From Minisyncoccota bacterium (GTDB lineage Bacteria > Patescibacteriota > Minisyncoccia > Phycocordibacterales > UBA9973): a stretch of 39,372 nt of DNA. Every line of letters begins with the position of its first letter. The stretch's first letter is position 1. The translations under genes and the position numbers were made by a program. The notes under the pieces were generated by a model, which had not been told where the DNA came from, made no database searches, and saw nothing but the letters and a program-made list of their open reading frames with translations. Positions 5,374 to 38,674 of this stretch are shown here, one piece after another. The stretch covers positions 1 through 39,372 of the forward strand of contig JAGOUX010000007.1 of the NCBI GenBank assembly GCA_018061035.1, written 5' to 3'.

Positions 5374-5390
5374 TGATGCAGAAACTTAAA

Positions 5391-5428
5391 AGCCCCGGAA
5401 TCACAGCAAATGCTGTGATTCCGGGGCT
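5391..5428 (-). terminator. Long-stem intrinsic terminator of the GC-rich acidic-protein gene
   Basis: A perfect 18-bp inverted repeat (AGCCCCGGAATCACAGCA and its complement, 2-base centre), followed on the minus strand by TTTTAAGTTT. It lies 27 bases behind the stop of the 5456-5740 gene. The stem is longer and more GC-rich than terminators of the AT-rich genes. Confidence 0.8.
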
Positions 5429-5455
5429 CGATGTGGCCATTTCGTTGTCTTGACG

Positions 5456-5740
5456 TCAGGAGACGCCTTCGACTTCATCCGCGTCCTTGTCGGCCTGCTG
5501 AACCTCGCCGTCGGTCTGGGAGGTGGCGTCGCCTGCTGACGGTTCGAGGTTGGCCGGCTGGCCGTCGTTGGCGGGGTCAACCGGCTCGGGATTGGCCGCG
5601 TCGGTCTCGTCGCCCGAGTCGCCGTGGGCGTGGATCTTCGCGCGCCCGCCGGAGTTGGCGAGAATCGAGTTCATTGCGACCGCTGAGGCAACTGCGTTGA
5701 TTCCCTTGAATGCTGAATGCTGCTGCGTTCCTGTCGTCAT
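5456..5740 (-). CDS. Small acidic GC-rich protein, unknown
   Basis: Encodes 94 residues. A short Ala/Asn/Ser-rich N-terminal part (AFKGINAVASAVAMNSI) is followed by a hydrophilic, probably disordered acidic tail rich in Asp, Glu, Ala, Pro and Gln. No membrane segment or known motif. An upstream GTG in frame (5764) is possible, but the ATG at 5740 has a good Shine-Dalgarno (AAAGGGGAG, 6 bases away), so I chose it. The gene has its own promoter (5799-5826) and long-stem terminator (5391-5428). Base composition is far richer in GC than typA or clpB on either side, which suggests acquisition from another genome. I do not recognise it; the antisense ORFs in the same place look like shadows. Confidence 0.6.
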   Translation of the reverse strand: MTTGTQQHSAFKGINAVASAVAMNSILANSGGRAKIHAHGDSGDETDAANPEPVDPANDGQPANLEPSAGDATSQTDGEVQQADKDADEVEGVS

Positions 5741-5798
5741 GCTGGTCTCCCCTTTGTTGGACACACACGGATGAGTATTGAATGTGCGTCTGACAGAA

Positions 5799-9080: not shown

Positions 9081-9845
9081 TTATGGCTTCTTCGGAGCGT
9101 CGATGTTCTTACGAGTTTCAATAATTGTATTTATTGGAATAAATGAATTATCAGATGAGAGGGCAACACCTAATACTTCTCCATCCAGATTTAGCACCAT
9201 GCTTCCGGTGTTTGATTTGGTCACTACTGGTTTGATATCTTTGTTGCCATCAAACATAAATGATGCAATGTTTCCACCAAATACCAATACCTTTTGTCCT
9301 GTCTTCATCTTATTTATATCTCCAAATGTTGGTACTTGAAATCCATTCTTGCTAGTGTCGTCTACCGGAGCACCGATCTTGAGGAATGTCACTGATGTCC
9401 AATCTCCACCGATAAATTCTGCTTTAAATTTTCCACTACCATTCTTTACATAATATATTCCTTTGTCAGAAGCGGTAGAACCATCTACCACTAGCGTACC
9501 GTCATCGGATATCACAAATCCGCGACCAATATTTGTCTCGATTGTTTTACCCTCTTCATCTGTGATTTCTCTTGTGACAGTAAATGCGGCAGACTGATTT
9601 TTGGCAATTGCATCCACAACCAAGTCTTCCTCTTTGACTACTATTGTCTGGGTGACAGTTTTACCTTCGACTTGTTCTATTTTTTCAACTGTCTGACGAA
9701 TCACTCTATTGATTGGTGCCGTAAAAGATACTGGCGCTTGTTGCATCAGGGTCACAGTAGTAATACCTGTCGCGATAGAGGTAATGAACGACAAAAGTAT
9801 CGCAAGTAATATGAGTTGTGATTTATTGAGATCTTTGATATCCAT
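9081..9845 (-). CDS. Membrane-anchored trypsin-fold protein lacking the catalytic triad
   Basis: A 254-residue protein from the chosen start. One N-terminal membrane segment (about 10-33) is followed by an extracytoplasmic domain that follows the DegP/HtrA protease pattern but without catalysis. GRGFVISDDGTLVVDGSTA stands where HtrA has GSGVIIS...NHV (His lost). SVTFLKIGAP replaces DLAVLKI (Asp lost). SNTGSMVLNLDGEVLGV replaces GNSGGPL (Ser lost). It may therefore bind rather than cut peptides (inference). An upstream in-frame ATG (9872) exists, but the ATG at 9845 sits directly behind TTCTAACGGG, the same arrangement as at secA. It lies 65 bases upstream of clpB, suggesting an envelope-stress link. 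Confidence 0.75.
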   Translation of the reverse strand: MDIKDLNKSQLILLAILLSFITSIATGITTVTLMQQAPVSFTAPINRVIRQTVEKIEQVEGKTVTQTIVVKEEDLVVDAIAKNQSAAFTVTREITDEEGKTIETNIGRGFVISDDGTLVVDGSTASDKGIYYVKNGSGKFKAEFIGGDWTSVTFLKIGAPVDDTSKNGFQVPTFGDINKMKTGQKVLVFGGNIASFMFDGNKDIKPVVTKSNTGSMVLNLDGEVLGVALSSDNSFIPINTIIETRKNIDAPKKP

Positions 9846-9849
9846 CCCG

Positions 9850-9927
9850 TTAGAAGTTAAATAATAATACATGTATCCTATTAGAACAACGGAAATCTAA
9901 AGATTCCTTAATTCTAACAGGATCCAT
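9850..9927 (-). promoter_or_regulatory. Palindromic leader with a 25-codon upstream ORF
   Basis: Minus-strand leader of the pseudo-protease gene. It contains three related arms: GGATCCTGTTAGAA (about 9925-9912), TTCTAATAGGATAC (9886-9873) and TTCTAACGGGATG (9855-9843). The first arm can pair with either of the others over about 12 bases, and the last covers the start codon, so two mutually exclusive folds are possible. A reading frame from the ATG at 9927 starts MDPVRIKESL and ends with TTC TAA four bases before the main start. It follows the desulfurase stop by 3 bases. A TATAGT lies at the right distance to make this ORF leaderless. The same layout occurs before secA. Confidence 0.5.
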
Positions 9928-9930
9928 AGC

Positions 9931-11169
9931 CTAACTATACCACTTTTTGAGCTTTGTCAAAATCGTCCTTAATGCTTTGATTGTTAGGTCGATTTCAGTT
10001 TTTGCAGTACTAGGACCAAGTGAAAAGCGAACTGATCCATCCGTGTCTTTAATATTAGGATTGATAGCTTGAATTACATATGAGGCCTTGCCATCGCCGG
10101 CCTTGCAGGCACTCTTGGCAGAAGCCATTATGTTGTGAGCAGAGAGCTCTATGACCAGAAGATCACTTGGAATATTTGGAATCGTGATATTGATATTATT
10201 GGGTAAACGCTCCTTAATATCTCCATTCAAAATTATGGTTGAATCAAGCCCTGATAATTTTTTTAAAAAATAATCTCTCAAAACTATTAATCTTTTATTT
10301 TCATTGATTTTATTTTTTCCTACGACAGACAAGGCTTGCCCAAATGATGTAATTGCTGGAAGATTTTCAGTACCTGGACGCAAACCATATTCTTGATCAC
10401 CACCACCCATGATTGGAAGAAGTGCAACAGTACTTCTTTTGTACAATATTCCCGCCCTGCCAGCACTTTCAATCTTGGCGCCCGACAATGTCAGCAAATC
10501 TACCCCCAAACGCTCCACATTGAGATCTAGATAATTTACTGCTTGCACAGCATCTGTATGAAATACCAAATCTGTTTGTAAAGGACTGTCCTTTACAAAA
10601 TTTAATTTTTTGAAGTGTCGAATTTCTTTTGCAATCTCTCGTATTGGCTGAATTGTTCCAATCTCATTGTTGGCATACATAACAGAGATCAACACTGTAT
10701 TCTTCTTGATAGCCTTTCTGATTTTCTTTGGATCAACAATACCGTTTTTTTCGACTGGAATAATCGAAACTTCAGCCAAATTTCTTTTTTCTAATAAATG
10801 GAAAGTCTCTAGTACAGATGAGTGCTCAATATTTGTCGTAATAATATGCGGTGCGGGAATAAGTTTTTTGAATGGTCTGGCCGAGATAGGTGCATGGAGA
10901 TCTGAGGACTTGAGAAAAATTTGTTCCCATGCCGCATTCACAACTCCTTGGATAGCTAGGTTGTTACTCTCGGTGCCTCCACTAGTAAATATGATTTCTT
11001 TTACTCGACAACCCAAAATATCCGCAACGCTTTTCCGCGCGTTTTCAAGCTGTATTTTTGCTTTTACTCCCCCACCATGAATTGAACTTGCATTAGGAAG
11101 CACCCCCGATGCGTAATCGAAGTAGATTTTATTTGGCTTTTTGGCTGATATCCGGTTTGATTTAGGCAC
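9931..11169 (-). CDS. Cysteine desulfurase (NifS/IscS-like, class V aminotransferase)
   Basis: PLP enzyme that takes sulfur from cysteine and passes it as persulfide to Fe-S or tRNA-thiolation acceptors. The 412 residues show SGGTESNNLAI (63-73), His116 in IEHSSV, Asp206 in HTDAVQA, the PLP-lysine K232 in SGAKIE (family SxHK, so the His before Lys is replaced by Ala), GTEN, and the active-site loop SAKSACKAG with the catalytic Cys. The N-terminus is shortened: about 20 residues between FDYA and SSIH are missing compared with IscS. No scaffold gene (iscU/sufU) is in the window. GTG start, six bases after a TATACT box, so the mRNA is probably leaderless. Divergent from the DUF4446 gene. Confidence 0.9.
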   Translation of the reverse strand: MPKSNRISAKKPNKIYFDYASGVLPNASSIHGGGVKAKIQLENARKSVADILGCRVKEIIFTSGGTESNNLAIQGVVNAAWEQIFLKSSDLHAPISARPFKKLIPAPHIITTNIEHSSVLETFHLLEKRNLAEVSIIPVEKNGIVDPKKIRKAIKKNTVLISVMYANNEIGTIQPIREIAKEIRHFKKLNFVKDSPLQTDLVFHTDAVQAVNYLDLNVERLGVDLLTLSGAKIESAGRAGILYKRSTVALLPIMGGGDQEYGLRPGTENLPAITSFGQALSVVGKNKINENKRLIVLRDYFLKKLSGLDSTIILNGDIKERLPNNINITIPNIPSDLLVIELSAHNIMASAKSACKAGDGKASYVIQAINPNIKDTDGSVRFSLGPSTAKTEIDLTIKALRTILTKLKKWYS

Positions 11170-16343: not shown

Positions 16344-16396
16344 AATAAAATTATACCATATAAAATAAATGTTAAAAGCAATATATGTAAATTTAT

Positions 16397-16647
16397 TTAC
16401 TCTTGTGGGCAAGGAGGGACTCGGCTATTACATAGCCAGGTGATTTTTGATGCACTTGGTGCATAACAAAAATCCTTTCGATTCCCTCACGTAAGCAAAT
16501 AAATTTGCTTACTCTTGTGGGCAAGGAGGGACTCGGCTATTACATAGCCAGGTGATTTTTGATGCACTTGGTGCATAACAAAAATCCTTTCGATTCCCTC
16601 ACGTAAGCAAATAAATTTGCTTACTCTTGTGGGCAAGGAGGGACTCG
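16397..16647 (-). repeat. 112-bp tandem repeat carrying the 3' end of tRNA-Leu
   Basis: Two identical 112-bp units (16397-16508 and 16509-16620) and a partial third (16621-16647) that runs into the real tRNA-Leu gene. Each unit contains the last 18 bases of tRNA-Leu(UAG) plus its downstream flank. The units hold three hairpins: GGCTAT/ATAGCC, ATGCAC/GTGCAT flanked by GATTTTTG/CAAAAATC, and GTAAGCAAAT/ATTTGCTTAC. Not a CRISPR: there are no spacers. It fills the gap between the transporter gene and the tRNA; no gene is seen in it. Confidence 0.9.
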
Positions 16648-16711
16648 AACCCTCAAGTCTTGCGACATTAGTTCCTAAGACTAACGCGTATACCAATTCC
16701 GCCACTTGCCC
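16630..16711 (-). tRNA. tRNA-Leu (anticodon UAG)
   Basis: Class II tRNA. Acceptor GGGCAAG/CTTGCCC, anticodon stem TTAGT/ACTAA with loop CTTAGGA, long variable arm, T-loop TTCGAGT, discriminator A. CCA not encoded. Partial copies of its 3' end are repeated downstream. Confidence 0.95.
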
Positions 16712-16744
16712 AATATATTAATAAATATTCGAAATATTTATTTG

Positions 16745-16817
16745 TGCGTCCAGAAGGGATCGAACCTTCGACCTTATCCTTAAGAGGGATCTGCTCTACC
16801 AGCTGAGCTATGGACGC
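16745..16817 (-). tRNA. tRNA-Lys (anticodon CUU)
   Basis: Acceptor GCGTCCA/TGGACGC, anticodon loop CTCTTAA, T-arm GAAGG-TTCGATC-CCTTC, discriminator A. One G-A mismatch at the base of the anticodon stem. CCA not encoded. Its 5' end is repeated upstream in 72-bp units. Confidence 0.93.
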
Positions 16818-16981
16818 ATATTATTTAATTTACAAAACAAACTTACTTTAGCACATTATCTAACGACCTACCAAAACAGCTATGGACGCATATTATTTAA
16901 TTTACAAAACAAACTTACTTTAGCACATTATCTAACGACCTACCAAAACAGCTATGGACGCATATTATTTAATTTACAAAA
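16806..16981 (-). repeat. 72-bp tandem repeat carrying the 5' end of tRNA-Lys
   Basis: Two identical 72-bp units (16806-16877 and 16878-16949) and a 32-base partial unit (16950-16981). Each starts with the first dozen bases of tRNA-Lys (read on the minus strand) plus its upstream flank, including an AT-rich -10-like TAATAT a few bases before the tRNA start. The promoter region of the tRNA therefore seems to be present in three copies. No gene is seen between here and tRNA-Leu(UAA). Confidence 0.9.
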
Positions 16982-17018
16982 ACAACTGTGGTACTTTTAC
17001 TATTATTCAAATTCCCGG

Positions 17019-35915: not shown

Positions 35916-38378
35916 CTACACCCCGTGGCACTTCTTATATTTCTTTCCGCTTCCGCATGGGCAAGGATCGTTGCGTCCCACTTCCCCCTTTTCTGTTGCA
36001 GTAGTCGGCTGAGATTCCTCATGATTAGTGACAAGGGTCTGCGCTGGTGCCATTTGTTCAGCCTGCACTGAGATAGTACTTTCGGTATTTATCGAACCCA
36101 CCAATGAATGCACCTGATCTTTGAATACTTCCTCCATTTCTTTAAACATCGCAAGTCCTTCTTTCTTGTATTCCACAATAGGCTCTCTCTGTCCGTATGC
36201 GCGGAGGTTCACAGAACTACGGAGATAATCCATAGCCTCGAGATGTTCCATCCATAATGTATCAGTGGTGTAGAGTGCTATTCGGCGGACTGTTTCGTAG
36301 AATCCCGGCTCTCCCATCTTGGTTTTCTTTTCTTCGACTACTTTATCGAAGCCTTCGTGTTCAATAGCAATTGTTGCAAGTAGAGCTTCGATTCCATCTT
36401 TGTCTGCACGAAGCATCTTTTGTCTTCTCTCATAAATAATCTTACGTTGATGGTTCATGACATCATCGTATTCTAGGGTATGTTTACGATTGTCGAAATG
36501 GAATCCTTCGATTTTTGACTGGGCGCCTTCTAGAGAACGACCGATAAATCTATTCTCGATAGGCTGATCTTCTGCAATGCCGAATCTTCCCATCATGGTC
36601 TTGATCCTCTCCGCTCCGAACACACGCATAAGGTCGTCCTCAAGCGATACATAGAATTGAGTTGCACCTGGATCACCCTGTCGGCCAGATCTTCCGCGAA
36701 GCTGATTGTCGATTCGACGCGCTTCATGTCTTTCGGTTCCGAGCACAAACAATCCGCCAGCAGCTTTCACCATTTCGTATTCCTCTTCTGTACTAGGATT
36801 TCCTCCGAGCTTGATATCGATTCCACGGCCAGCCATGTTGGTAGCGATAGTCACTGCGCCTCGGCGTCCAGCCTGAGCAATGATCTCTCCTTCTTTCTCA
36901 TGATTTTTTGCATTCAATATTGTATGCTGAACGCCTTCTTGTTTTAGGTACACAGACAGAAGCTCGTTTTTCTCGATAGAGATGGTACCGATTAGAACTG
37001 GAGTTCCTGCTTGATTTAGCTCTTTGACCTTTTTTGCGATAGCTTGAAACTTGCCCTTCTCAGTCTGAAAGATCAAATCATTGTGATCGATACGCACCAC
37101 AGGGCGATTGGTCGGGATAACAATAACATCGAGTCCGTATACCTTTAGGAACTCTTCTGCAGATGTCTGTGCAGTACCAGTCATACCAGAGAGCTTTTTG
37201 TAAAATCTGAAATAGTTTTGGAATGTAATCGAGCCCGAAGATCGAGTCTCCTTTTCAATCTTTACTCCTTCTTTGGCTTCGATGGCCTGATGTATACCCT
37301 CGCTCCATCGACGGCCTGGCTGGAGGCGACCAGTAAATGGATCGACGATTATCACCTCGCCTTCTTTGACCACATAATCCTTGTCACGCTCGAAAATTGC
37401 CTGCGCTTTTACCGCAGTTTCTAGGTGGTGCACATATTTGATACCCTTTTCAGTATATATATTGTCGATACCGAGAAGTTGTTCAGCTTTGGTGATACCT
37501 TCATCGGTCATACTGATAGCCTTAAGCTTTTCGTCCACTGTATAGTCAGTATCTCGCTTGAGCTGTTTTGCAATTTGGAAAAACTTGGTATAGAAATCTT
37601 CAGAATCTCCGGAAGCAGAAGATATAATAAGTGGTGTTCGAGCCTCATCAATCAATATTGAGTCCACCTCGTCCACTACTGCAAAATTGTGCCCACGCTG
37701 TACTAGTCCATCGAGAGAGTTCGCGAGGTTGTCACGCAAATAATCAAATCCATATTCATGGTTTGTACCGTATGTAACATCGGCTTCATATGCTTGTCGT
37801 CGAGACACAGGTTTCAAAAAATCATATACTATTTTAAATTCACCGACTTGATCACGCTCACCATCTTCCTCCTTATGCGAAGCATCATAAAGATACGATA
37901 CATTTTGAGAATTGATCACACCGACTGAAAGTCCAAGCAAGTTGTACACCTGACCCATGAGTACTGCACCGATACGTGATAGATAATCATTTACAGTAAT
38001 GATGTGCACTCCTTCACCAGTAAGTGCATTTAAATACGCAGGCAAAACAGTAACAAATGTTTTTCCTTCACCTGTCTTCATCTCGGCGATTTTTCCCTTA
38101 TGAAGCGCTAATCCTCCGATCAACTGCACGTCAAAAAGGCGCTTGTTGTCTGCACGCTTCATCGCCTCTCGCACCAAGGCAAAAGCCTCAGGCAATATCT
38201 GATCGAGACTTTCTCCAGCCTTTAATCTTGCTTTAAATTCATTAGTTTTCTCTGGGATACCAGCGTCTGTCAGCTTGGCCATTTCCGCCTCTAAAGCATT
38301 GATTTTTATGACTGTATCTTTAGTATCTTTAAGAAACTTGGAGCTCTCATCTCCAAACATTGAACTGAATATACTCAT
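35916..38378 (-). CDS. secA: Preprotein translocase ATPase SecA
   Basis: Motor that pushes unfolded preproteins through SecYEG. 820 residues: NBD1 with MKTGEGKTFV (Walker A), YGTNHEYGFDYLRDN, VDEVDSILIDEARTPLIIS (DEAD-like), the preprotein cross-linking domain, NBD2 with TNMAGRGIDIKLGG and GRSGRQGDPG, then the helical scaffold/wing region and a C-terminal SEC-C zinc motif NDPCPCGSGKKYKKCHG. The zinc tail normally binds SecB or ribosomes. Start follows TAACAGG and is preceded by a structured leader with two upstream ORFs. First gene of the mur cluster. Confidence 0.97.
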   Translation of the reverse strand: MSIFSSMFGDESSKFLKDTKDTVIKINALEAEMAKLTDAGIPEKTNEFKARLKAGESLDQILPEAFALVREAMKRADNKRLFDVQLIGGLALHKGKIAEMKTGEGKTFVTVLPAYLNALTGEGVHIITVNDYLSRIGAVLMGQVYNLLGLSVGVINSQNVSYLYDASHKEEDGERDQVGEFKIVYDFLKPVSRRQAYEADVTYGTNHEYGFDYLRDNLANSLDGLVQRGHNFAVVDEVDSILIDEARTPLIISSASGDSEDFYTKFFQIAKQLKRDTDYTVDEKLKAISMTDEGITKAEQLLGIDNIYTEKGIKYVHHLETAVKAQAIFERDKDYVVKEGEVIIVDPFTGRLQPGRRWSEGIHQAIEAKEGVKIEKETRSSGSITFQNYFRFYKKLSGMTGTAQTSAEEFLKVYGLDVIVIPTNRPVVRIDHNDLIFQTEKGKFQAIAKKVKELNQAGTPVLIGTISIEKNELLSVYLKQEGVQHTILNAKNHEKEGEIIAQAGRRGAVTIATNMAGRGIDIKLGGNPSTEEEYEMVKAAGGLFVLGTERHEARRIDNQLRGRSGRQGDPGATQFYVSLEDDLMRVFGAERIKTMMGRFGIAEDQPIENRFIGRSLEGAQSKIEGFHFDNRKHTLEYDDVMNHQRKIIYERRQKMLRADKDGIEALLATIAIEHEGFDKVVEEKKTKMGEPGFYETVRRIALYTTDTLWMEHLEAMDYLRSSVNLRAYGQREPIVEYKKEGLAMFKEMEEVFKDQVHSLVGSINTESTISVQAEQMAPAQTLVTNHEESQPTTATEKGEVGRNDPCPCGSGKKYKKCHGV

Positions 38379-38516
38379 CCTGTTAGAAGCAGGTCGCGGT
38401 CAACAAACCGAGACTGTGCTTAATTATGCTGTTAAATTTGATATATGTTGTCATTATTACGTATTTTTGCTTAAACTGCGCCCGCGATTTCTAACGGGAC
38501 TCATGGGTATATACTA
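38379..38516 (-). promoter_or_regulatory. secA promoter and palindromic leader with two upstream ORFs
   Basis: Extended -10 TGCTAGTAT (TAGTAT 38516-38511; weak -35 TTTAAA). A 15-codon frame begins at the likely +1 (38504, MSPVRNRGRSL, stop 38457). A 23-codon frame follows (38454-38383, starts MTTYIKF, ends TATCF) and stops four bases before the secA ATG. Arms CCCGTTAGAA (38499-38490) and TTCTAACAGG pair over 10 bases, extended by CCGCGA/TCGCGG, and would sequester the secA ribosome-binding region. It may be a member of a dispersed palindromic repeat family. Confidence 0.55.
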
Positions 38517-38596: not shown

Positions 38597-38674
38597 CTAA
38601 GCTCGCTTCTTTTTTGAAGCTACTTTCTTTGTAGTCTTCTTTACTGCCTTCTTTGCTTTCTTTTTTGCTGCCAT
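38597..38674 (-). CDS. 25-residue Lys/Ala-rich histone-like peptide
   Basis: A 25-codon frame starting MAAKKKAKKAVKKTTKKV and ending KKKRA, followed 10 bases on by a strong terminator. Composition matches the Lys/Ala tails of histone H1-like bacterial proteins (AKKA/VKKT repeats), so it may bind DNA or RNA. No Shine-Dalgarno precedes it. A promoter is suggested at 38784-38812. Too short for most gene finders; the coding signal is the regular codon pattern bounded by promoter and terminator. Confidence 0.65.
   Translation of the reverse strand: MAAKKKAKKAVKKTTKKVASKKKRA

Follow-up and report, generated by a model that had tools for sequence, protein, structure and literature searches.

A probable MITE-like copy of a start-codon-inserting GIY-YIG element in the secA leader of a Minisyncoccota bacterium

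The start of secA in a Minisyncoccota bacterium is preceded by a palindrome and two short reading frames, raising the question of whether this leader regulates the gene or was inserted in front of it. The locus lies on the minus strand of a 39,372-nt stretch of DNA (contig JAGOUX010000007.1, positions 1 to 39,372), hereafter the window. A preliminary description, made from the letters alone, reported the palindrome with its CCGCGA/TCGCGG pair and both frames with their stops, all of which are present in the sequence as described. It proposed a SecM- or MifM-like leader coupling secA to ribosome behaviour and, as an alternative, the insertion of a palindromic repeat common in Patescibacteria. 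The alternative turned out to be right, on the evidence of a target duplication, dispersed copies and empty sites in relatives. Sequence comparison makes it likely that the leader is a MITE-like, non-autonomous copy of a GIY-YIG element that inserts at start codons, with the nuclease as its presumed mover.

The secA leader and its empty sites

The features of the locus are the following, all on the minus strand.

38379 to 38498: putative MITE-like non-autonomous element at secA, with terminal inverted repeats, a target duplication and empty sites in 21 of 22 relatives
38378 to 38499: the same element as a 122-bp unit, that is, the 120 bp plus a terminal T (38499) and A (38378)
38500 to 38503: promoter-proximal copy of the target duplication TGAG, within ATGAGT (38504-38499)
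38374 to 38377: gene-side copy of TGAG, at a secA start that agrees with that of relatives
38505 to 38516: -10 box TAGTAT (38516-38511), a consensus match, plus a 6-nt spacer; empty sites in relatives are arranged alike
38457 to 38504: upstream frame 1, MSPVRNRGRSLSKNT and a stop, 15 codons, beginning at the duplicated ATG; frame not conserved
38383 to 38454: upstream frame 2, 23 codons, beginning 2 nt past the stop of frame 1
35916 to 38378: secA, the host gene (NCBIfam SecA)

The 120-bp block is flanked as ATGAG, TCCCGTTAGAA...TTCTAACAGG, ATGAG, and sits exactly on the secA start codon. Read along the minus strand, the -10 box is followed by 6 nt, ATGAGT, CCCGTTAGAA..., TTCTAACAGG and finally ATGAGTATATTC, which belongs to secA. 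CCCGTTAGAA (38498-38489) can pair with TTCTAACAGG (38388-38379) at 9 of 10 positions, the two arms forming terminal inverted repeats, and the presence of ATGAGT on either side of the palindrome as a duplicated target marks the block as an insertion. The last base of the element (A, 38378) combines with the gene-side TG to give the ATG of secA. Frame 2 ends with TTC TAA, its TAA lying inside the right repeat, 4 nt ahead of this ATG. No Shine-Dalgarno sequence is found at a usable distance from secA, the only candidate being an AGG that abuts the ATG, and the TAGTAT box with its spacer is, by its sequence, the putative leaderless promoter of secA before the insertion. No Rfam family matches the element, and the RNA fold of the block is unremarkable (z = −1.64). 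A cis-regulatory RNA was considered and rejected, since this fold is not significant and the copies resemble one another at their ends and not in their interiors.

To see the locus without the block, secA was compared between the genome of the window and 22 relatives with a secA match. In 21 of these the gene carries no element, and the start codon with which it begins follows a -10-like box at a distance of a few bases. The sole other occupied secA, that of genome G006, has its element at the same nucleotide, but the copy is a different one: its first frame is another (MSPVRSRGHGMRRET and a stop), and it has no second frame ending at secA; a frame resembling frame 2 is present in some copies elsewhere. 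The G006 secA copy is closest to other G006 copies (73%), while the secA copy of the window is closest to a G006 copy at another gene (78%), a pattern of best matches which suggests that secA was hit twice independently. The mreB site is likewise empty in most relatives, and in G004 an independent variant element with other repeats (CCCGTATGAAAT...TTTCGTACGGG) occupies the same codon. Judged by their sequence, the empty secA and mreB sites are leaderless gene starts.

Further upstream, at about 38606-38674 on the minus strand, the window holds a small lysine-rich frame of the type MAAKK...KKRA, and many relatives have similar frames upstream of secA.

Ends, targets and hosts of the short copies

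A second copy of the same design lies elsewhere in the window, also on the minus strand.

9846 to 9921: second element copy, 76 bp, ahead of the gene at 9081-9845
9927 to 9850: 25-codon upstream frame of this copy, ending TTC TAA 4 nt ahead of the host ATG
9923 to 9926: promoter-proximal copy of the target duplication TGGA, within ATGGAT (9927-9922)
9841 to 9844: gene-side copy of TGGA

Here ATGGAT stands at both sides and duplicates the start of the host, which therefore most likely begins at ATG 9845 (MDIKDLNKS) rather than at 9872. Gene starts are probably mis-annotated wherever the element sits, as with the ATG at 9872. The RNA fold of this copy (9840-9935) has z = −3.33.

Whole-genome counts were obtained by pattern searches and from fetched stretches. 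The pattern TTCTAACRGG occurs 26 times in the 607-kb genome of the window, against 2 occurrences of the reversed control. This recurrence is far above what chance would give. Almost all of the 26 ends lie on gene starts, often with a second copy of the start codon beyond the element, and the hosts include secA, dnaA, fpg, gatC, rplI, miaA, murI and mreB. Within one genus the counts of repeat ends are patchy (76 in G006, 38 in G012, 22 in G018 and 0-12 in others), and G006 copies at different genes are up to 94% identical.

The copies are bounded by the terminal inverted repeats YCCCGTTAGAR...YTCTAACGGGR and share these ends but not their interiors. An exact 4-bp target duplication flanks 75 of 144 short copies (shuffled mean 16, maximum 30), about half having no exact duplication. 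The duplicated target is mostly the TGNN of an (A)TGNN start, so that the last element base, A or G, together with TG rebuilds an ATG or GTG. A duplication of 6 bp was considered initially and revised to one of 4 bp with a terminal Y...R pair beside it, since the base that follows the duplication is T or C in nearly every case and can pair with the final element base; the terminal pair varies as a unit, being T..A in 126 copies and C..G in 8. Among 77 start-codon copies with a far-side TG, 69 also repeat codon 2 at its first and second base. Of 74 copies, 30 have a TANNNT box 5-7 nt ahead of the promoter-proximal start, a number that falls to 12-14 when control distances are used, and only 2 have a Shine-Dalgarno-like motif; hosts are thus often, though not always, recognisable as leaderless genes.

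A second class of copies has the left flank AC[TCG]TGT (ACTTGT) and the right end TTYTAATGGG followed by ATG (TTCTAATGGG). It is found at many gene starts with no target duplication, again with a -10-like box about 6 nt ahead; members are L018 (rplQ), L010 (rpmB) and L001 in the genome of the window and L050, L157, L131, L068 and L147 in relatives.

The nuclease-bearing form

Where ends of this kind stand further apart, the DNA between them contains a GIY-YIG reading frame. The genome of the window has one such nuclease element (L193), beside a gene read by eye as grpE. Eighty nuclease loci were fetched from public genomes by protein alignment alone, and in 76 of them both inverted repeats bracket the nuclease frame, with a median element length of 278 bp. 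An exact 4-bp duplication flanks 44 of these 76 (shuffled mean 19, maximum 28) and is missing from 32; TGAA is the commonest right flank. Of 27 further nuclease loci, 14 reached a terminal-inverted-repeat score of at least 12, compared with 1 of 256 random control positions.

The single frame between the ends encodes 85-86 aa matching PF01541 (GIY-YIG; E = 1e-15 and 1.6e-16), and the GIY-YIG catalytic residues Y3, Y5, Y16-T17-G18, R24/R26, H30 and E62 are invariant in A1. Since no recognised transposase gene lies between the ends, the system falls outside the known insertion-sequence families (DDE, HUH, serine/tyrosine recombinase). The closest solved structure by sequence is 1zg2, the UPF0213 protein BH0048 (E = 4e-12); in the literature examined, no description of UPF0213/YhbQ-like GIY-YIG proteins as parts of mobile elements was found. 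In 57 of 71 cases the nuclease stop codon starts at the first duplicated base: the frame, having no stop of its own, takes the TGA (of ATGA) or TAA of the target and so often overlaps the host start codon.

In a phylum-wide sample of 287 genomes, 143 have homologues of the nuclease (E ≤ 1e-15). Most record titles of the loci fetched by protein alignment name Patescibacteria groups; some are Omnitrophota, Planctomycetota or Desulfobacteraceae bins, where transfer or binning error may be at work. Other family members carry other repeats (CCCTGTTAAAT, CACGTATGAAAT, CCGCACACTTA) and occupy other sites too. The family appears to be widespread, with a single tiny GIY-YIG gene and complete members of about 278 bp. 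Carriage by phages or plasmids was considered and set aside, with one weak, partial match each in phage and plasmid records and none in IMG/VR.

The short and long forms have ends in common, which makes the nuclease the candidate enzyme of an autonomous partner. Within the genus, repeat ends number 7-76 (median 22) in the 7 genomes that have a close nuclease and 0-11 (median 2) in the 18 that do not (p = 1e-4, where the cut-off for a close nuclease, E < 1e-38, was chosen after the data had been seen and non-independent genomes are treated as independent). The nuclease element of G006 ends in GAAGTC/GACTTC, as do several G006 short copies. In the genome of the window the repeats of the nuclease element (TCCGTTAGAG) are slightly unlike those of the short copies, a difference in sequence suggesting that the short copies there may be relics of a lost partner.

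Several further loci were noted. The gene downstream of the nuclease element in the genome of the window (L329, G000:C14:14976 onward) belongs to a paralogous family of proteins of about 580 aa, with up to 51 matches per genome in the genus and none in nine other genomes of the order searched. L191 (G038) is a small GIY-YIG frame with different repeats that, read by eye, appears to lie directly ahead of a tRNA-Ser gene, part of which is duplicated. L170, L179 and L183 are GIY-YIG frames whose repeats (CCGCACACTTA...TAAGTGTGCGGG, for example) precede TTGAC, possibly a -35 promoter site; they may form a sister family with another target.

Proposed mode of spread, alternatives and related systems

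We propose the following route for the element. The GIY-YIG nuclease would serve as the mobility enzyme, cutting the target and the element ends, possibly as hairpin-forming single strands. Cleavage would fall in the start-codon region, perhaps aided by promoter melting, and host repair would close the gaps; short copies such as that at secA would be acted on in trans. The host gene would stay on with its promoter intact: either translation begun at the old leaderless ATG would run through the inserted DNA and resume by reinitiation at the duplicated ATG, or ribosomes would start directly there. Termination and reinitiation from a small frame into secA would be a plausible way for the host to stay expressed, and any altered level of secA would be a by-product of insertion. 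To our knowledge, GIY-YIG nucleases have no stand-alone transposase role. Also speaking against the proposal are the class of copies with no duplication, the short and long copies that have no exact one, and the slightly deviating repeats of the nuclease element in the genome of the window.

Other accounts of the same data have to be weighed. Were secA controlled by the small frames through the stem, as in the leader-peptide reading of the preliminary description, the existence of frames and stem, the end of the second frame 4 nt from secA and the occurrence of frames ending a few bases from the host ATG in 33 of 74 short copies (18 when mononucleotide-shuffled, a modest excess among copies that are related) would find an explanation. 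However, the element is missing at secA in 21 of 22 relatives, where the gene is leaderless; the frames differ in G006, the only other occupied secA; elements of the same kind precede unrelated genes; and the RNA of the secA copy has no remarkable fold. SecM and MifM also are small frames upstream of a secretion gene, but those at secA are not conserved, not specific to secretion and derived from an insertion, and since other secA genes lack the two-frame chain, a dedicated secretion sensor is disfavoured. We regard this reading as highly improbable. Copies scattered with no preference for 5' leaders, named in the preliminary description as grounds for refutation, were not what was found; the copies favour the start codon itself. 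Such a preference could also arise with no true targeting, if insertion occurred at many TNNA sites and start-codon copies were seen because rebuilding of the start codon makes them nearly harmless. Insertions with duplications away from starts do exist in G006 and G012 (for example at ATTTA, ATAAAA and GTTGAC), and from these sequences survival bias may contribute to the location as well. As the full explanation it is rather unlikely, since target-like 4-mers in the window number 542 in intergenic DNA and 20 at starts, yet the genome has about 18 of its 19 copies on start codons (the exception being L017); the expectation at starts is 3.6% if only coding interiors are forbidden, a value that ignores promoters and other intolerant intergenic sequence. 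Likewise, 46 of the 54 nuclease elements that make an ATG or GTG open a frame of at least 60 codons, as against 26% of all RTGAA sites.

The role of the nuclease itself is open to two further challenges. An unrelated transposase might move both short and long elements in trans, leaving the GIY-YIG gene a passenger: terminal inverted repeats with target duplications are typical of DDE transposons, and Tsy transposons carry a GIY-YIG nuclease that is not essential (PMC10293859). We consider this unlikely, as there is no other gene between the ends in the 76 nuclease-bearing loci and copy number tracks the nuclease. A homing-endonuclease-like gene, spreading by cleavage of empty alleles and recombinational repair with short copies as remnants, would suit GIY-YIG as a classical homing nuclease domain, the positions that the family takes up within a 16S rRNA gene and next to a tRNA gene, and some insertions common to the related genomes G012, G021 and G023. 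It is very unlikely nonetheless, because many unrelated sites per genome, with only about 4-5 bp in common and a target duplication, are unexpected for homing; GIY-YIG insertions in CPR rRNA genes have likewise been placed outside homing spread (PMC11270868).

Compared with known systems, the secA block has the marks of a MITE, namely inverted repeats, a target duplication, dispersed copies and empty sites in relatives. Like bacterial MITEs, the short copies are geneless and numerous, with an apparent autonomous partner that has the same ends; unlike in MITEs, that partner encodes only a GIY-YIG nuclease and no known transposase, start codons are preferred and the element end rebuilds the start. 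REP and REPIN palindromes are small dispersed repeats associated with a single small nuclease, RAYT (TnpA-REP, a Y1/HUH enzyme). The likeness, small palindromic repeats spread by one small nuclease, is one of working, but here the presumed enzyme belongs to a different superfamily, a 4-bp duplication is made and start codons, not extragenic space, are occupied. With homing and free-standing GIY-YIG genes of the I-TevI and Seg types the element shares the catalytic domain (PF01541) and selfish spread; in contrast to them it has no intron, many short targets, inverted repeats, target duplications and non-autonomous derivatives, and because its sites are many, short and duplicated it falls outside the homing genes.

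On balance, we lean towards regarding the element as a new superfamily of DNA transposable elements: about 278 bp long and possibly the smallest complete one known, with an 85-aa GIY-YIG protein as its own transposase, targeting the start codons of leaderless genes, rebuilding the start, borrowing its stop and leaving short copies at essential genes across Patescibacteria. Novelty at the level of class hinges on the nuclease being the mover; otherwise the element would be a novel form of a MITE family. Should the nuclease prove to drive movement, transposition enzymes would gain a new class that consists of a bare GIY-YIG domain. About 700 bp is usually quoted as the minimum for insertion sequences, and the element would then lie far below it. 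The proposal would also explain the small GIY-YIG genes in half of the sampled Patescibacteria genomes and, if true, would describe how a parasite persists in a streamlined genome by landing on start codons, duplication and translational coupling, with secA, dnaA and mreB staying functional. No account of such an element was found in a literature search that had preprints and most subscription journals outside its scope and is therefore weak evidence.

GIY-YIG reading frames have been reported in insertions of CPR rRNA genes that are neither group I nor group II introns (PMC11270868); inverted repeats, target duplications, start-codon sites and short copies are not described in the main text of that report. 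L178 (G033), a small GIY-YIG frame with CCACACCTC repeats that by eye appears to lie within a 16S rRNA gene, and these insertions probably belong to the same wider nuclease family.

Two other features of the window were recorded. At 5375-5749 lies a GC-rich island of 64-66% in surroundings of about 40-46%; it contains short repeats but no clear gene. At 16388-17011, tandemly duplicated segments of 112 bp and 72 bp adjoin and partly overlap the tRNA-Leu and tRNA-Lys genes.
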